From positions 310,001 to 374,000 of the forward strand of contig JAJXWA010000001.1 in assembly GCA_021781795.1 (NCBI GenBank): 64,000 nucleotides of DNA, read 5' to 3'. The stretch comes from Acidobacteriota bacterium (GTDB lineage: Bacteria; Acidobacteriota; Terriglobia; Terriglobales; Acidobacteriaceae). Under the pieces are notes generated by a model, which saw only the letters and a program-made list of their open reading frames with translations, had not been told where the DNA came from and did not search any database. The position numbers were made by a program, and so were the translations under genes. Shown here piece after piece: positions 44,700 to 63,175 of this stretch. Position 1 is the first letter of the stretch. Each line of letters opens with the position of its first letter.

Positions 44700-47069
44700 C
44701 TAGCGCGGGAGGGCGAAGGCGATGTAGGCGCCGCCGGTGGGGGATTTGGGGTCGCGGCCGCCACTGGAGGCGATGACGACGTACTGGCGGCCGTTGACCA
44801 TGTAGGTGGAGGGTGTGGCCATGCCGGCGAAGGGCAAGGTCGTTTGCCAGAGGAGCTGGCCGGTGGAGGCGTCGAAGGCGCGGAACTGGCGGTCATAGAC
44901 GGTGGCGCCGATGAAGAGGACTCCGCCGGCGGTAACGATGGGACCGCCGTAGTTTTCGCTGCCGGTGTTGGTCATTCCCTGGCTGGCGAGCGCGGGGTAT
45001 TCGCCGAGGGGAATCTTCCAGAGGTACTTCCCTGTTTTGAGATCGATGGCGTTGAGCGTGCCCCAGGGCGGCGCGATGGCGGGGTAGCCTTCGGGGTCGA
45101 GGAATTTGCGATAGCCGGTGAAGGTGTAGGCGTCTGTGCCGGGCGCGGCGGCGGGCGGGGTGAGCTTGTCGTGGACGGCGAGCCAGGCGAGGAGACCGGC
45201 GAGGTCTTTGCCTGCGATGTCAGGCTGCGGGGGCATGAGCTTGCCGCCATTTTGAATGAGGTGGGTGAGCTGGGCGGAGGTAAGACGGTTGCCTACGCCA
45301 AGGATGGCCGGGAAGGACGGGGCGACTCCCTGAAGGTGGTCGCCGTGGCAGAGGGCGCAGCGCTGCTGGTAGGTGGGGTTGATGGGGCCTTTGGGGGCTG
45401 AGGCTTCGGGCGCGGCGGCGAGCTCTTTGGCGTCTGCGGTGGAGACGGGCGTGGCGAGGAATTCGAGGAGCGCGGCGAGGCCGGGGGCGTCGATGTTGGG
45501 GAAGGAGGGCATGCGGCCTCCGCCGTCACGGATTCTGCCGGTGATCTTCTTTGTGGACATGCGGGCGGTGATGCCGACGAGCGAGGGGAAGGCGGGCGGC
45601 GAGCCGGCGCGGTTGATGCCGTGGCACATGGCGCACTGGCTGCGGTAGAGCTGCTCGCCGGGGCTGCCGGTGTGGGAGGCGGGGACAAGGCCGCCGGTCC
45701 AGGCCATCTCCGTGGCGTTGACGTAGAGGACGCCGCTGGTGGGATCGATTGCGGGACCGCCCCACTCGGCACCGCCGTCAAAGCCGGGAAAGACGACGGT
45801 CTGCTGACCTACGGCGAGGGGGTAGAACTGACCGTTGCTGCGGAAGGTGCGGAAGGTCGAAAGGGCCCAGTCGTGCGCCTGCGGGGTGCGGGTGGTGAGC
45901 ATGTTCTCGGTGAGCTGCTGGCGGGCGAAGGGCTCGGGAGTGTCGGGAACAGGCTGCGTGGGCGCGGTGACTTCGCCGGGGACGTTGCTGGGTGGGAACG
46001 GGTGCTCGTGGATGGGAACGAGCGGCTGGCCGGTGAGGCGATTGAAGAGGTAGAGGTAGCCCTGCTTGGTGGTCTGCGCGAGGGCGGGGATGGATTGGCC
46101 GTCGCGGTGGAGGGTGAAGAGCGCGGGCGGCGAGGGGAAATCCCGATCCCAGATGTCGTGGTGGACGCCCTGGAAGTGCCAGAGGCGCTGGCCGGTGTTG
46201 GCGTCGAGGGCGAGGAGGGTGTTGGCGAAGAGATTGTCGCCGACGCGGTCGCCACCGTAGAAATCCATGACCGCGGAGCCGGTGGGGGCGTAGACGATGC
46301 CGTGTTCGGCGTCGAGGGCCATGCCGGCCCAGTTGTTGGCGGCGCCGGCGGTTTGCCAGGCATTGGGCGGCCAGGTGTTGGACCCGAATTCGCCCGGGCG
46401 CGGGATGGTGCGGAAACGCCAGACAAGCTGGCCGGTGCGGACGTTGTAGGCGCGGATGTCGCCGGGCGGGGCGGGATGGGTTTCAGGGTCGCGGCCGCCG
46501 ACGATGATGAGGTCTTTGTAGATGATGCCGGGCGAGGTGAGGACGGTGGATTGGATTTGATAGTCACCGCGGAGGTCTTTGCGGAGATCGATGCGGCCCT
46601 GCTCACCGAAGGTGGGGATGGGGCGGCCGGTGGAGGCGTCGAGGCAGTAGAGGAAGTTCATAATGCCGGCGAGGAGGCGGGGATGGCTGCCGTCGGTCGG
46701 GTTGCCGGGCCAGTAGGCCAGGCCGCGGACGGGCTGCGTGCCGGCGATGCCGGAGTCGAATTGCCACTTGAGCTGGCCGGTGGCGGCGTCGAGGGAGATG
46801 ACTTTTTGTTTGGGCGAATAGGCGTAAAGGGTGCCGTCGATGATGAGGGGGTTGGTCTCCATGTTGCCGGTGTCGCCTGTGTCATAGCGCCAGGCCTGGG
46901 TGAGATGGGCGACGTTGGCGCGGTTGATCTGGGTGAGCGCGGAGTAGTGCGCGCCGTCGGAGCCGCCGTTGTAGACGGACCAGTCGTTGCCACTTTGCGC
47001 AGCAGCGAAAGAAACAGCAGCAACGAGAGAGCACAGGGACAAGTGGCGAATGCGCACGCGCAGGAACAT
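44700..47069 (-). CDS. PQQ-dependent dehydrogenase with two internal cytochrome c domains
   Basis: The 789-residue periplasmic protein has a signal peptide ending near AAAQ (22-25) and a PQQ-type beta-propeller (DWSVYNGGSDGAHYSALTQI, tryptophan-docking repeats such as LDAATGQLKWQFDSG). Between propeller blades lie two haem c sites: C479-x2-C482-H483 with probable Met520, and C571-x2-C574-H575 with probable Met612. The propeller resumes after residue 645 (GTLNAIDLKTGKYLWKIPLG, FDASTGQLLWQTTLPFAG). It should oxidise an alcohol or sugar and pass electrons to its own haems. Substrate is unknown. No PQQ biosynthesis gene is in the window. Confidence 0.9.
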   Translation of the reverse strand: MFLRVRIRHLSLCSLVAAVSFAAAQSGNDWSVYNGGSDGAHYSALTQINRANVAHLTQAWRYDTGDTGNMETNPLIIDGTLYAYSPKQKVISLDAATGQLKWQFDSGIAGTQPVRGLAYWPGNPTDGSHPRLLAGIMNFLYCLDASTGRPIPTFGEQGRIDLRKDLRGDYQIQSTVLTSPGIIYKDLIIVGGRDPETHPAPPGDIRAYNVRTGQLVWRFRTIPRPGEFGSNTWPPNAWQTAGAANNWAGMALDAEHGIVYAPTGSAVMDFYGGDRVGDNLFANTLLALDANTGQRLWHFQGVHHDIWDRDFPSPPALFTLHRDGQSIPALAQTTKQGYLYLFNRLTGQPLVPIHEHPFPPSNVPGEVTAPTQPVPDTPEPFARQQLTENMLTTRTPQAHDWALSTFRTFRSNGQFYPLAVGQQTVVFPGFDGGAEWGGPAIDPTSGVLYVNATEMAWTGGLVPASHTGSPGEQLYRSQCAMCHGINRAGSPPAFPSLVGITARMSTKKITGRIRDGGGRMPSFPNIDAPGLAALLEFLATPVSTADAKELAAAPEASAPKGPINPTYQQRCALCHGDHLQGVAPSFPAILGVGNRLTSAQLTHLIQNGGKLMPPQPDIAGKDLAGLLAWLAVHDKLTPPAAAPGTDAYTFTGYRKFLDPEGYPAIAPPWGTLNAIDLKTGKYLWKIPLGEYPALASQGMTNTGSENYGGPIVTAGGVLFIGATVYDRQFRAFDASTGQLLWQTTLPFAGMATPSTYMVNGRQYVVIASSGGRDPKSPTGGAYIAFALPR

Positions 47070-47496
47070 GAGGGTTGCAGAGTCTCCGGAATTCGAGGGA
47101 CGGAGCGATTGTTACACCCGGAGGCGAAACGTGGGAAGGGCTTGCGGGCGCGGGCGCGCTGGCTCATTCACAAGTTCGCAAAATTCTCTACAGGCCTGTT
47201 ATGGAAACCTGCGATCAAAGGGGAGAGGGGGTACAGACCCGGCAGATTCCTGGCAAGTTGGACCGGGTACATACCTGACACTGCGCCCTCCGCCGATTAT
47301 GCCCTCTTGATTGCCATGAAGACATTGTGTGCCAAGGCGGGGAAATGATCTGCAAAGTAAGGTGTAGTGTTTAGGCACGTGGAATGAGAGGGGTGCGGGA
47401 CGAGTGCCGGAAAGGAGAGGTGGACACAGCAAAACGGCGCGGGGATGGAGTGGGCGCTTATCCAGGTTTCAGAAGCGAGACATGGGGCACCCATTG
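47070..47496. other. 427-base region between PQQ dehydrogenase and lnt
   Basis: It holds a G-rich stretch followed by GTACAGACCCGG near 47218-47245 and repeat copy 2 at its right end. No gene or clear terminator was recognised. Confidence 0.5.
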
Positions 47497-47516
47497 TCAG
47501 CGGTGGACTCGCATCG
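47461..47516 (+). repeat. palindromic dispersed repeat, copy 2, running into the end of lnt
   Basis: Arms TCCAGGTTTC (47461-47470) and GAGACATGGG (47477-47486) flank AGAAGC and are followed by GCACCC. The sequence continues as ATTGTCAGCGGTGGACTCGC into the last codons of lnt and matches 49719-49751 in about 28 of 33 positions from GGGGCACCCATT onward. Confidence 0.75.
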
Positions 47517-49014
47517 CGCGCGCTGCGATTGAGATGTCCTCCGAGGAGGATGCGATCGTGGCTCTTCCCTTGCGCACAAGTTGAATCAACACCAAGGCCA
47601 GCAGGGCGATGGCGCACCACCCAAACCAGTCGCCCAGCAACAGGTACACGGTGTGGCTGTGTCCCGCTGGAACGGTGGCGAGTAAGGTTGCGAATGGTGC
47701 AGCGTTGCTGGTGATTTCCGCAACGATTCTGCCGCGGTCATCCGCGACGGTGAGCAGTCCGTCACGAGCGGACCGAACGAGGCTGAATCCGTCTTCCACG
47801 GCACGCATGACTGCAATGTGCCCGTGCCAGAATCCATCCATGCGAAAGTCCCAGGCAGGTGTGAGCATCAGGCCGACTCCCGCCTGCCCGTAGGCCCGCG
47901 CAGGGTTCGTGAAGTCCAAATCTTTGCAGATGGCTGTCGCCCAGATTTGGCCAGGGTTGTTTGCTGGAGCGGCGAAGAGAGTTCTTCGTGATCCCGGGGT
48001 GAAGCGGCTGGTTTCGAAGGGCGGCAGCAAGTGCTCTTTCGCGTAACTGCGGGGCGCGACCCCAGGCCCGTAAATGCGCGCTTCGTTGTGCTGACTCGCA
48101 GAGCGTCTCCGCGCCATCCCGATGATGAGTACGGAGCCTGTTTGGTCTGCGATGGGTTGAAAGAGTGCATCGACATCCGTCACTGTGGAGTCGAGGGCTA
48201 CGCCCATGTCTTCTGGCATCACCACCACCTGCGCTCCCTGGGCGATGAGTTCGCGCGCGTGCGTGGCGTAGTTCTCAAAGAGATGTTGTGTGGGCGCGCC
48301 AGGATCGTTGATGGAGGAGCCGCCATTGGCGTCTGACGCGATAAGGCCAACTTTGACTACAGGATCACCTTGCGGCGTGGAAAGTCTGATGAAGCCGAAG
48401 ATGAGCAGAGCGGCCAGCACAGAGCATGTGGCGCCGAGGAGGCGCGCGGCCTGCTGGCGTTTCTGGGGCCAGAGATCGACGGCAAGCGCCAATCCGGTGG
48501 GAAAGAGCAAGAGCACGAATCCCATGCCCCAGGGGCCGGCAAGAGAAGCCGTCTGAAGAAATGGCAGGAAATTCAACTGCGAATAGGCGATGCAGGCGGC
48601 CGATCCATGGGGCCAGATCCAATAGCGGATGAACTCAAAGGTGGTCCAGGTGGCCGGAAGGGAGAGCCACGCGCTCCACATTGCTCTTCTGTGTGCGAGG
48701 GCTCTCATGAGCAAAACGCCGAGACCGAAAGCGAGTGCGGCTGTGCCGCAACTCGCGAACCATGCGATAGGCGGTGCTCCGAGGACATGAAAGTAGTGCC
48801 AGAGGTTGAGGTAGCCGGCCAGCCACGAAGCCGGCGCTAGAAGGCCCACCTGCCACGCGGGGATGCGCAGGGCGACGATCAACACCGGCAATGGCGCAAA
48901 CCACATCAGCAGCCAAAGCGGGCTGAGCCCGTTGCCAAAGTAAAGCAGCAGCGCCGAGGCGGCACATGCCAGCAATGCGAGCGCGTACGAGTTGAATCTA
49001 TTTGCGGATTCCAT
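47497..49014 (-). CDS. apolipoprotein N-acyltransferase-like protein (Lnt family)
   Basis: The 505-residue protein has about six N-terminal membrane helices, a nitrilase (carbon-nitrogen hydrolase) domain, and one C-terminal helix, the Lnt topology. The catalytic triad fits: Glu268 (MPEDM), Lys326 (YAKEHLLPPFE) and Cys363 (AICKDLDF). Lnt adds the third acyl chain to lipoproteins in the inner membrane. GGAGG precedes the ATG at 49014, which lies 17 bases inside the end of the tetR gene, so the two are coupled. The last codons and stop lie in a dispersed repeat. Control by an adjacent TetR regulator is unusual for a housekeeping lnt, so this may be a specialised paralogue. Confidence 0.83.
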   Translation of the reverse strand: MESANRFNSYALALLACAASALLLYFGNGLSPLWLLMWFAPLPVLIVALRIPAWQVGLLAPASWLAGYLNLWHYFHVLGAPPIAWFASCGTAALAFGLGVLLMRALAHRRAMWSAWLSLPATWTTFEFIRYWIWPHGSAACIAYSQLNFLPFLQTASLAGPWGMGFVLLLFPTGLALAVDLWPQKRQQAARLLGATCSVLAALLIFGFIRLSTPQGDPVVKVGLIASDANGGSSINDPGAPTQHLFENYATHARELIAQGAQVVVMPEDMGVALDSTVTDVDALFQPIADQTGSVLIIGMARRRSASQHNEARIYGPGVAPRSYAKEHLLPPFETSRFTPGSRRTLFAAPANNPGQIWATAICKDLDFTNPARAYGQAGVGLMLTPAWDFRMDGFWHGHIAVMRAVEDGFSLVRSARDGLLTVADDRGRIVAEITSNAAPFATLLATVPAGHSHTVYLLLGDWFGWCAIALLALVLIQLVRKGRATIASSSEDISIAARAMRVHR

Positions 49015-49579
49015 TGAGATACCTCCGGAACGCTCTGTGGCATTGGGCGCGAAACTCTTCCTGCGGTAACTGGACGCGCCCACCGACGTACAGCATCACC
49101 AGGCCCTGCAGCATTGCGCCGGTTTCGAAGACGATCTCCCAAACGTCGTCTTTGCGAAAGATGCCCTGCTTCATGCCCAGTTTCAAGGCCTCCGCAGAAA
49201 ACCTCGCCGTCGGCGATTTGTCTGCGCGGAAGTCTGCCGGGAACTGGCGTGCGCCTTTGCGCTGCTCAAGGAACATGAGCTCAAACATGCGCGGCTGTGC
49301 GAATGCAAAGTCTAAAAAGACATCCAGAATCTTCATGAGCTGCTCCTTTGGATCCGGGGGGAGCGGCGTGCCGGCAACGCGAGCTGCAAGATCTTCAAAG
49401 CCGGCGTCGGCTAGGGTATTGAGCAGATGGTCGCGATCGGTAACGTGCCGGTAGAGCGCCATCGGCGTGATTCCGACTACCTTGGCGACGCTGCGCATCG
49501 TGACGGCTTCCGGTCCATCGCGGGAAAGCAACCGCCGGGCTGCGACCTGGATTCGTTGCGATGTCGTCCTTGCTTTCAT
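48998..49579 (-). CDS. TetR/AcrR-family transcriptional regulator
   Basis: The 193-residue protein has an N-terminal TetR HTH (RIQVAARRLLSRDGPEAVTM and VVGITPMALYRHVTDRDHLL) and a helical ligand-binding domain with FELMFLEQRKGARQFP, also seen in TetR proteins. Two GTATAC palindromes lie directly upstream at 49580-49617, strongly suggesting autorepression of tetR-lnt. The ATG at 49579 is used; a GTG at 49597 would start inside the operator. The ligand is unknown. It overlaps the lnt-like gene by 17 bases. Confidence 0.88.
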   Translation of the reverse strand: MKARTTSQRIQVAARRLLSRDGPEAVTMRSVAKVVGITPMALYRHVTDRDHLLNTLADAGFEDLAARVAGTPLPPDPKEQLMKILDVFLDFAFAQPRMFELMFLEQRKGARQFPADFRADKSPTARFSAEALKLGMKQGIFRKDDVWEIVFETGAMLQGLVMLYVGGRVQLPQEEFRAQCHRAFRRYLNGIRK

Positions 49580-49594
49580 GTATACGATGTATAC
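49580..49594 (-). promoter_or_regulatory. TetR operator candidate, site 1 (proximal)
   Basis: The 15-bp near-palindrome reads GTATAC-ATC-GTATAC on the minus strand and abuts the tetR ATG. It repeats the site at 49603-49617. Confidence 0.7.
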
Positions 49595-49602
49595 CACACC
49601 AA

Positions 49603-49617
49603 GTATACTCTGTATAC
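49603..49617 (-). promoter_or_regulatory. TetR operator candidate, site 2 (distal)
   Basis: The 15-bp near-palindrome reads GTATAC-AGA-GTATAC on the minus strand. Its centre is 23 bases from that of site 1, about two helical turns. It overlaps a possible -10 TATACT. Confidence 0.7.
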
Positions 49618-49673
49618 ATTATTCACAGACACACTCATGCTTCCAACGGAGATCGTGTGGGCGGGGATGGGGG

Positions 49674-49751
49674 TTGTGCTTTCCCACCCATGACGCCTGC
49701 TGCGCACGCGCCATGGATGGGGCACCCATTTTCAGTGGCGAATTCGCATCG
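49674..49751 (+). repeat. related dispersed repeat flanking tetR-lnt on the other side
   Basis: TTGTGCTTTCCCA (as at 42823), an imperfect palindrome CCCACCCATG ... CATGGATGGGG, then GGGGCACCCATT continuing through TTCAGTGGCGAATTCGCATC. The tail matches 47484-47516 in the same orientation. Its loop differs from copies 1-3. Confidence 0.65.
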
Positions 49752-49806
49752 CTTACTGGCACACGAGCCAGCGGTCAGGTTCGAGAGGATGCGGGAGTCG
49801 CAACCG

Positions 49807-51153
<1,347 letters not shown>

Positions 51154-62201: not shown

Positions 62202-63175
62202 CGGATGGCTCCGCCGTGGGCCGCGAGCAGCGGGCCAGCACCGGCGGCGATGAGCATTTCTGCGGCAAGGCGGCCGAGCGCGGCGGGGTCGGTGGTGGCC
62301 GGAGCGCGGTGATGGATGCGAATGGCGTGGCCGGAGTCGGGCGCGGCAACGACGCCGAAGATTTCGACTTCCTCCGAGGAAGCAGAGCCGTTCCCCGGTC
62401 TCAGATTCGAGACCTGGGGCACCCCGTTCGATACCGGGCGGCAGTGGACGCCGATGGGGACCTGGCAGCCACCGCCCAACGCGGCAAGCGCGGCGCGTTC
62501 GGCTGTGACGGCGAAGCGCGTGGCAGGGTGATTGAGAAAGGCAACGGCGGCGAGGGTGGCTGCGTCGTCGTCGCGGGTCTCGATGCCGAGTGAGCCCTGA
62601 CCGGCGGCGGGGGTGAAGTCGGAAGGGTCGAGGCGCTCGCGGATCCACTCAGTTTTTTCAAGTCGGTCGAGGCCGGCGGCGGCGAGCAGGATGGCGTCAA
62701 CCTGACCCTCGGCGAGCTTGCGGAGACGGGTGTCGACGTTGCCGCGGAACTCGACGGCTTCAATGTCGGGGCGCAGGGCTTTGAGTTGCGCGCGACGGCG
62801 CTGGCTGCTGGTGCCGACGCGGGCGCCCTGCGGCAACGCGGCGAGGTTGGGGTAATTCACCGAGACGAAGACATCGCGGGGATCGACGCGCGGCGGCGTA
62901 GCGGCGAGAGCGAAAGGCGCGGGCAGCTCGGTGGGCAGGTCTTTGAGCGAGTGCACGGCGAGATGGACGCGGCCCTCGGCGAGCGCTTCTTCAATCTCTT
63001 TGGTGAACATGCCTTTGGAACCCACCTGCGCGAAGGTGACTTCCTGCAGGCGGTCGCCGGTGGTCTTGATGATCTCGATCTCGACGATGTGACCCTGCGC
63101 GCGGAGAAGCGCGGCGATGTGGTTGCTTTGCCAGAGAGCGAGCTGCGAGCCCCGGCTGCCGATGCGAAGATTCAT
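62198..63175 (-). CDS. hemC: porphobilinogen deaminase, with an in-frame palindromic insert
   Basis: The 325-residue enzyme builds hydroxymethylbilane from porphobilinogen. Motifs include RIGSRGSQLALWQ, AVHSLKDLPTE, VGTSSQRRRAQLKALRP and VEFRGNVDTRL. The cofactor-binding Cys237 is in GGGCQVPIGVH. Immediately after this, residues about 246-269 (RPVSNGVPQVSNLRPGNGS then ASSEE) look extra compared with the family, and the DNA for GVPQVSNLRPG is a dispersed palindromic repeat (62393-62425). The frame is kept. It overlaps hemA by four bases (ATGA) and hemD by four (GTGA). Confidence 0.95.
   Translation of the reverse strand: MNLRIGSRGSQLALWQSNHIAALLRAQGHIVEIEIIKTTGDRLQEVTFAQVGSKGMFTKEIEEALAEGRVHLAVHSLKDLPTELPAPFALAATPPRVDPRDVFVSVNYPNLAALPQGARVGTSSQRRRAQLKALRPDIEAVEFRGNVDTRLRKLAEGQVDAILLAAAGLDRLEKTEWIRERLDPSDFTPAAGQGSLGIETRDDDAATLAAVAFLNHPATRFAVTAERAALAALGGGCQVPIGVHCRPVSNGVPQVSNLRPGNGSASSEEVEIFGVVAAPDSGHAIRIHHRAPATTDPAALGRLAAEMLIAAGAGPLLAAHGGAIR
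62393..62425 (-). repeat. palindromic dispersed repeat, copy 3, inside hemC
   Basis: On the plus strand the arms CCCCGGTCTC (62393-62402) and GAGACCTGGGG (62409-62419) flank AGATTC and are followed by CACCCC. It matches intergenic copies at 42832 and 47461 and has the same orientation relative to the plus strand. It is translated on the minus strand as GVPQVSNLRPG. Confidence 0.75.

Follow-up and report, generated by a model that had tools for sequence, protein, structure and literature searches.

In the window, by which we mean the whole 64,000-nucleotide stretch of an Acidobacteriota genome that was analysed, a tetR-type regulator gene and a gene for an lnt-like acyltransferase, which overlap by 17 nt, lie between accC and the gene for a PQQ-dependent dehydrogenase (Table 1). 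The first-pass annotation reported same-orientation repeats on either side of these two genes (47484-47516 and 49719-49751, about 28 of 33 bases identical), with the end of lnt inside the left copy, and proposed that the module was gained by recombination between the repeats or that the end of lnt was altered by the repeat. The repeats are real. A repeat search of the window found that 47482-47517 and 49717-49752 agree at 31 of 36 positions (86%) over 36 nt, in direct orientation and with a spacing of 2235, and the 33-base register falls inside this match. The overlap with lnt was also found as described, with the stop at 47497-47499 and the codons for AMRVHR at 47500-47517 (minus strand); the final 21 bases of the left copy are these last six codons and the stop.

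Table 1. Features at and near the accC-PQQ dehydrogenase interval, in positions of the window
Feature	Positions	Strand	Remarks
PQQ-dependent dehydrogenase gene, left anchor	44700..47069	-	with cytochrome c domains; PF01011, PF13442
Left REP-like hairpin	47455..47492	+	short class, ~32 nt; aligned to 18 further short-class copies
Left tail	47493..47517	+	25 nt, 20/25 identical to right tail; on the - strand it contains the end of the lnt-like gene (six codons and stop)
lnt-like acyltransferase gene	47497..49014	-	505 aa, ATG at 49014 after GGAGG; alternative GTG start 49083 gives 528 aa
tetR-type regulator gene	48998..49579	-	193 aa, ATG at 49579 (alternative GTG 49597); PF00440, PF13305
Operator-like GTATAC-N3-GTATAC	49580..49594	-	adjoins tetR start codon
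Second operator-like GTATAC-N3-GTATAC	49603..49617	-	upstream of tetR
Right REP-like hairpin	49676..49727	+	long class, TCCCA to GGGGCACC 45 nt; 3' of accC
Right tail	49728..49752	+	25 nt, partner of left tail
accC, right anchor	49807..51153	-	TIGR00514 over cut-off
Third family hairpin	62392..62424	+	short class; located by script

Results

The repeat pair and a dispersed hairpin family

A degenerate pattern drawn from the repeat pair matches the window at the pair and nowhere else, and matches none of 100 shuffles, a test that is post hoc because the pattern was built from that pair. By this test and by the comparison of tails given below, the repeat pair exceeds chance.

Both repeat copies contain TGGGGCACCC, which is the 3' arm common to the hairpins of a dispersed family of the form GTGCTTTCCCA-[variable palindrome]-TGGGGCACCC with the conserved motif GGGGCAC(C). 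The hairpins upstream of this arm differ in class, that of the left copy measuring about 32 nt and that of the right copy about 45 nt. The right hairpin, GTGCTTTCCCACCCATGACGCC...GCGCCATGGATGGGGCACCC, has a DNA fold of -13.6 kcal/mol (z -2.8) and is not singled out by RNA folding over about 100 nt (z -0.9). The left hairpin, ATCCAGGTTTC-AGAAGC-GAGACATGGGGCACCC, is partly decayed: nine of its ten stem pairs can form, two of them as G-U, and energy folding does not yield the family hairpin. For the left stretch, RNA folding of the two strands gives z -2.1 and z -1.2, with predicted structures that differ from the family hairpin. Rfam has no match up to E 5 in 47000-49900, and a terminator scan found three sites against 2.4 expected, none of them at either repeat.

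Within the genome of the window (3.4 Mb), the pattern TCCCA-N16..40-TGGGGCACC has 24 exact matches, of which at least two are not hairpins on inspection (on C14, locus L131, and at C54:6402, locus L144), against none for the reversed control. A stricter pattern, with 29 further bases required, was counted in 60 genomes, 36 in the genus and 24 outside it, individual places being drawn from among the matches listed. It has matches in 35 of the 36 genus genomes (20 in the genome of the window, up to 190 in G008 and none in G018), and 9 of the 24 outside genomes carry one to three; the control pattern gave 9 matches summed over all 60. Several hairpin lengths coexist in one genome.

The stems covary. 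Among 25 copies of the 31-nt class, picked by their fixed ends only from loci of several genomes, 23 form all six inner pairs and two form five. When 16 distinct short-class copies are compared, four of the six inner pairs have changed on both sides, 97.9% of cells are paired, and the covariation score is reached by none of 500 shuffles. An earlier pairing count on 19 sequences agrees with this result, and was biased because these sequences were selected beforehand for their ability to pair.

Link to tyrosine transposases

On contig C24 of the same genome a RAYT-class gene, encoding a 178-aa tyrosine transposase (NF047646 REP_Tyr_transpos, 95.7 bits against a cut-off of 80), sits between two inverted family hairpins. 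We surveyed this region together with 20 regions around PF01797 genes of relatives. In twelve of the regions the encoded protein has no less than 47% identity with the C24 transposase, and in the other nine it is a more distant Y1 protein (26-32%). Of the 12 RAYT-class genes, 11 have a hairpin of the family form no more than about 500 bp away on one side or both, and 9 have one on both sides; none of the nine distant Y1 genes in this survey has any. The hairpins of the own and G005 regions were known before the count; with both left out the figures are 9 of 10 and 7 of 10. At the one exception (L267) a contig end cuts one flank and the other flank has no hairpin. Where hairpins stand on both sides they form an inverted pair at eight of nine genes, L270 being the exception, and some of the flanking hairpins (CCCGCTCATCGC...GGGGCACAG) are of sister classes whose sequence is not identical.

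Because the hairpins flank REP-associated tyrosine transposase genes, the repeats are of REP/TIR type, and the family belongs with the REP/TIR repeats of RAYT-type transposases. The two repeats of the window are different subclasses of this one dispersed, transposase-linked family, the left one standing before the PQQ dehydrogenase gene and the right one after accC. It resembles the REP/RAYT systems (REPtrons) in its short palindromes, its many copies and its place beside a REP_Tyr_transpos gene, but several hairpin lengths occur per genome and the GTAG tag is absent from the conserved upstream and downstream columns (copies from three genomes). TIR-flanked tyrosine transposases (TIRYT) have been described in Acidobacteria, among which T. 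saanensis, K. versatilis, A. capsulatum and G. mallensis are named, with TIR copies dispersed through certain genomes (Di Nocera et al. 2013, PMC3733652, in the portion drawn on here). The present family is like these in its inverted-repeat hairpins around tyrosine transposase genes and in its scattered members, whereas the GGGGWSAS of the TIRtron TIRs, compared by motif description, is not matched by GGGGCACC or GGGGCAC(C); section 16 of that paper describes only the transposase gene as bracketed by repeats. The family is filed in neither named group because it has neither the GTAG tag nor the GGGGWSAS motif. Among the literature titles listed on REPs or repeats in Acidobacteria, or on RAYT and recombination, none concerns bracketed genes of this kind.

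The tetR-lnt operon

The lnt-like protein scores over the cut-off for PF20154 (LNT_N) and PF00795 (CN_hydrolase) and below the equivalog cut-off of TIGR00546 (99.8 against 132.9 bits). E291, K349 and C386 (528-aa numbering) are invariant in nine lnt-like sequences; the corresponding Glu, Lys and Cys have a catalytic role in Lnt. The protein thus shares with apolipoprotein N-acyltransferase (Lnt) both domains and the invariant residues, and solved Lnt structures are its best PDB sequence matches, but it falls under the lnt cut-off and its gene adjoins a tetR of its own. By these sequence features it lies within the Lnt / carbon-nitrogen hydrolase superfamily, short of canonical Lnt. Elsewhere the genome has a second Lnt-like frame of 570 aa that is more distantly related (30% over part). 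PADLOC returned nothing for TetR or the lnt-like protein, and the literature titles listed hold no description of an operon of TetR with an lnt paralogue or of GTATAC with TetR.

Strong homologues of the lnt-like protein are patchy, occurring in 9 of 59 other genomes at E < 1e-15. A search of GTDB-based contigs gave 193 relatives, and the best 80 were kept. These best 80 of 193 are mainly from Acidobacteria and also from Dyella, Luteimonas, Dokdonella, a Steroidobacteraceae MAG and a Spartobacteria MAG, the more distant ones being from Bacteroidota and others. A tetR homologue adjoins the lnt-like gene in 52 of these 80, some of the other 28 being cut at a contig end. No family hairpin comes closer than 400 bp to the lnt-like gene or to tetR in any of the 80 other loci, a count in which several loci are without full flanks and decayed copies would escape; the nearest family copies are at 2.8 kb (L330) and, as a variant, at 3.8 kb (L278). 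L351 has, 180 bp downstream, an inverted repeat that is unrelated in sequence. Module and window are nearly the same in G+C content (60.5% and 61.5%), so that composition gives no sign of a recent gain.

The operator-like motif GTATAC-N3-GTATAC, present twice in the window, occurs upstream of tetR with at least 10 of 12 positions matching in 50 of the 52 loci, the pattern having been chosen after inspection of 27 of these 52 upstream regions. At the two misses (L281 and L291) the sequence begins inside tetR and has no upstream part. Of 934 random stretches taken from these loci, 3 attain 10 matching positions. Both window motifs lie between the tetR start and a promoter-like match at 49646-49618, of which one was found against 0.9 expected by chance. 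The observed conservation of the motif is good evidence for tetR-lnt as a self-contained, autoregulated operon that is present in distant hosts, and from the conserved sites we infer that the operon is probably controlled, by repression, by its own TetR through GTATAC-N3-GTATAC.

The C-terminus of the lnt-like protein

Homology among the lnt-like proteins stops near residue 504 (528-aa numbering), beyond which the tails vary in length and sequence. The window protein continues for about 24 residues beyond this point, the last six being encoded by the repeat. An extension of this size is not unusual, because the C-termini of homologues vary in length; those of G046 and G038 are also longer-tailed (503 aa) and have no family hairpin nearby. 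AMRVHR as a native ending of lnt-like proteins was rejected, since L276, which is matched through residue 528, has other residues there. Of the suggestion that the end of lnt was altered by the repeat, the comparison of homologue C-termini supports this much: the C-terminus is lineage-specific and runs into the repeat, as would be expected of a variable tail that extends into the DNA of the junction.

The accC-PQQ dehydrogenase interval in relatives

Among the 60 genomes, no more than 5 kb separates accC from the PQQ dehydrogenase gene in the genome of the window and in eight relatives. The TetR and lnt-like proteins are absent (tblastn, E 1e-6) from all 20 accC-downstream regions of relatives, including all eight syntenic ones, the region of G016 being 736 bases only. 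Among those compared, tetR-lnt is at the accC-PQQ site only in this lineage, and a tetR-lnt pair conserved at this place without the repeats, which would have spoken against a gain, occurs in none of the 20 regions.

Over 377 columns, 47024-47399 aligns at about 75% identity with what precedes the PQQ dehydrogenase gene in G033, where a short-class hairpin follows this flank 44 bases on, against 60 bases on in the window. From its position the left hairpin is likely to be the same insertion as the hairpin of G033, which is not proven because the bases between the flank end at 47399 and the two hairpins align no better than shuffled sequence (253 of 1000 shuffles as good). G033 carries a methyltransferase gene (PF08241) between two short-class hairpins, the second of which stands before accC. 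The same methyltransferase (PF08241, 88% identical to that of G033) occurs in G026, where a hairpin comes after it and the gap measures 4.7 kb and includes other genes. A pattern scan of the gap finds no family hairpin in the other six syntenic relatives, and in G009 a short-class hairpin lies close 3' of accC. The genome of the window has only a 56% homologue of this methyltransferase, located elsewhere. This fits a replacement of the methyltransferase by tetR-lnt, which cannot be proven because the genome is 88% complete.

Since its content differs between relatives, the interval is variable, with REPs at its edges in some lineages. The synteny comparison therefore agrees with the first-pass annotation as to the absence of tetR-lnt from relatives. 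The empty site with a single repeat that it predicted was not found; in its place are the two hairpins around another gene in G033 and the one hairpin in the larger gap of G026.

The 25-nt tail

The 25 nt that follow TGGGGCACCC were compared among 23 copies of this genome. The left and right tails, with 20 of 25 positions identical, are the best of the 253 pairs (runner-up 16 of 25, mean 7.2, sd 2.4), and a pattern made from both tails, with up to three mismatches, matches these two places only across the 60 genomes. The tails of family copies resemble one another in G005 (mean local score 16.5 against 12.2 shuffled) and are little alike in G009 (12.2 against 11.3). When set against the G005 and G009 tails, the left window tail scores near the level of shuffled sequence, 58 and 104 of 300 shuffles doing as well; the right tail, matched by 8 and 16 of 300, scores modestly better than shuffles. 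A weak family tail therefore exists and may contribute to the match between left and right. As a full explanation the tail as a mere part of the family was rejected, since the weak family tail does not account for 20 of 25. Since this tail match is specific to the pair, belonging to the family does not account for all of the repeat. Beyond any family share, a local event seems to join both tail sites, either recombination at the gain of the module or later conversion.

Discussion

We consider it likely that the window combines dispersed, transposase-linked repeats with a separate, self-regulated tetR-lnt module in a variable, REP-edged slot, and that the tail was duplicated or copied. The module would have entered this slot, which has REP edges in some lineages, or displaced other genes in it. 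The lnt-like frame would end in the REP tail because a variable C-terminus extends up to the first stop that the junction offers, and the 25-nt tail would most likely have been duplicated or copied on the arrival of the module, or later by conversion between copies. A gain of the module at the site, or a replacement of other genes by it, is supported, whereas the REPs as its vehicle are not. Of the proposal that the module was gained by recombination between the repeats, the site-specific gain stands; repeats of this kind are not confined to the module, and recombination between them is possible because the tail is pair-specific.

Other routes to the same arrangement differ in what they make of the tail and of the two hairpin classes. 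The REPs may have inserted independently at two intergenic sites, with the tail copied later by local conversion and the module brought by an unrelated route. REP copies 3' of accC in G009 and G033 as well, and the high REP copy number of relatives, agree with such a coincidence, but the tail demands an extra event and REP density is low in the genome of the window, with its 24 exact matches; we regard it as possible, if doubtful. Rather unlikely, in our judgement, is a recombination in which a molecule carrying tetR-lnt and one REP-tail recombined with a resident REP-tail, which would leave direct repeats with different hairpins. Its strength is that it would account for a pair-specific direct repeat of REP end and tail on both sides, for hairpin classes that differ between left and right and for the other cargo between hairpins in G033. 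A match of 36 bp at 86% is, however, short for homologous recombination; neither a donor molecule nor an empty site with one REP was found among the relatives compared, other tetR-lnt loci are without an adjoining hairpin (0 of 80), and shared descent of the left hairpin with that of G033 is unproven by flank alignment.

Two further readings give the hairpins a direct part in the fate of the module or of nearby transcripts. That a transposase moved the module as a composite element with two REPs as its ends is highly improbable in spite of the REPs on both sides and the REP-associated transposase gene in the genome, for the window copies are direct repeats of different classes, unlike the inverted pairs at eight of nine transposase genes, and the bracket occurs at 0 of 80 other module loci (within 400 bp, several being cut by contig ends). 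The hairpins might instead be transcription terminators, or stabilisers of mRNA 3' ends, for accC and the lnt-like gene, their match reflecting a shared function. Each does lie close 3' of a gene and the stems covary, but neither hairpin has a terminator-like site, the tails of other family copies generally differ and the left hairpin is decayed, which makes this reading quite unlikely.

More speculatively, the accC-PQQ interval could be a cassette slot edged by REP hairpins, in which short REP-plus-tail homology lets unrelated accessory genes, such as tetR-lnt and the methyltransferase of G033, be swapped. We think this improbable; if it were true, REPs would be portable recombination anchors for the turnover of accessory genes.

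The findings are mostly ordinary, the operator-like motif and the REP-edged variable slot being the parts that deserve follow-up. That a conspicuous bracket is explained by a common, transposase-linked repeat family advises caution in calling such pairs the ends of mobile elements. The analysis also exposes a well-defined and widespread operon made up of a TetR, its putative GTATAC-N3-GTATAC sites and a lipoprotein-acyltransferase-like enzyme, the regulation and substrate of which are directly testable, and it brings to light an intergenic slot with REPs at its edges whose gene content differs between relatives.

Results

The operator-like motif at the start of tetR, GTATAC-N3-GTATAC, was found in 50 of 52 tetR-lnt loci, which span Acidobacteria and Proteobacteria, the remaining two being without upstream sequence. 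The PQQ dehydrogenase gene, the left anchor of the module, partially matches TIGR04528, the acido-empty-quinoprotein model, with a score of 216.8 bits where the cut-off is 650.

Coordinates of features in the window and in the same genome
Feature	Coordinates	Remarks
PQQ dehydrogenase gene	window 44700-47069	cytochrome c domains located between propeller parts
GTATAC-N3-GTATAC	window 49580-49617	two sites, at tetR start
Third hairpin of the REP/TIR-type family	window 62392-62424	short class
REP-associated tyrosine transposase gene	L041:1507-2164 (G000:C24)	flanked by inverted hairpins

Elsewhere, five hairpins in one orientation form an array that repeats about every 88 bp (locus L180:9820-10204, also L330). 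The hairpins at L155:1083-1137 and L154:1625-1680 carry an extra segment, CTTCG...CTCAGGGCA(A/G)GC, within the 3' arm, which is perhaps a second dispersed repeat inserted into the hairpin. The unit at L041, in which the transposase gene has inverted hairpins on each side, is REPtron-like.
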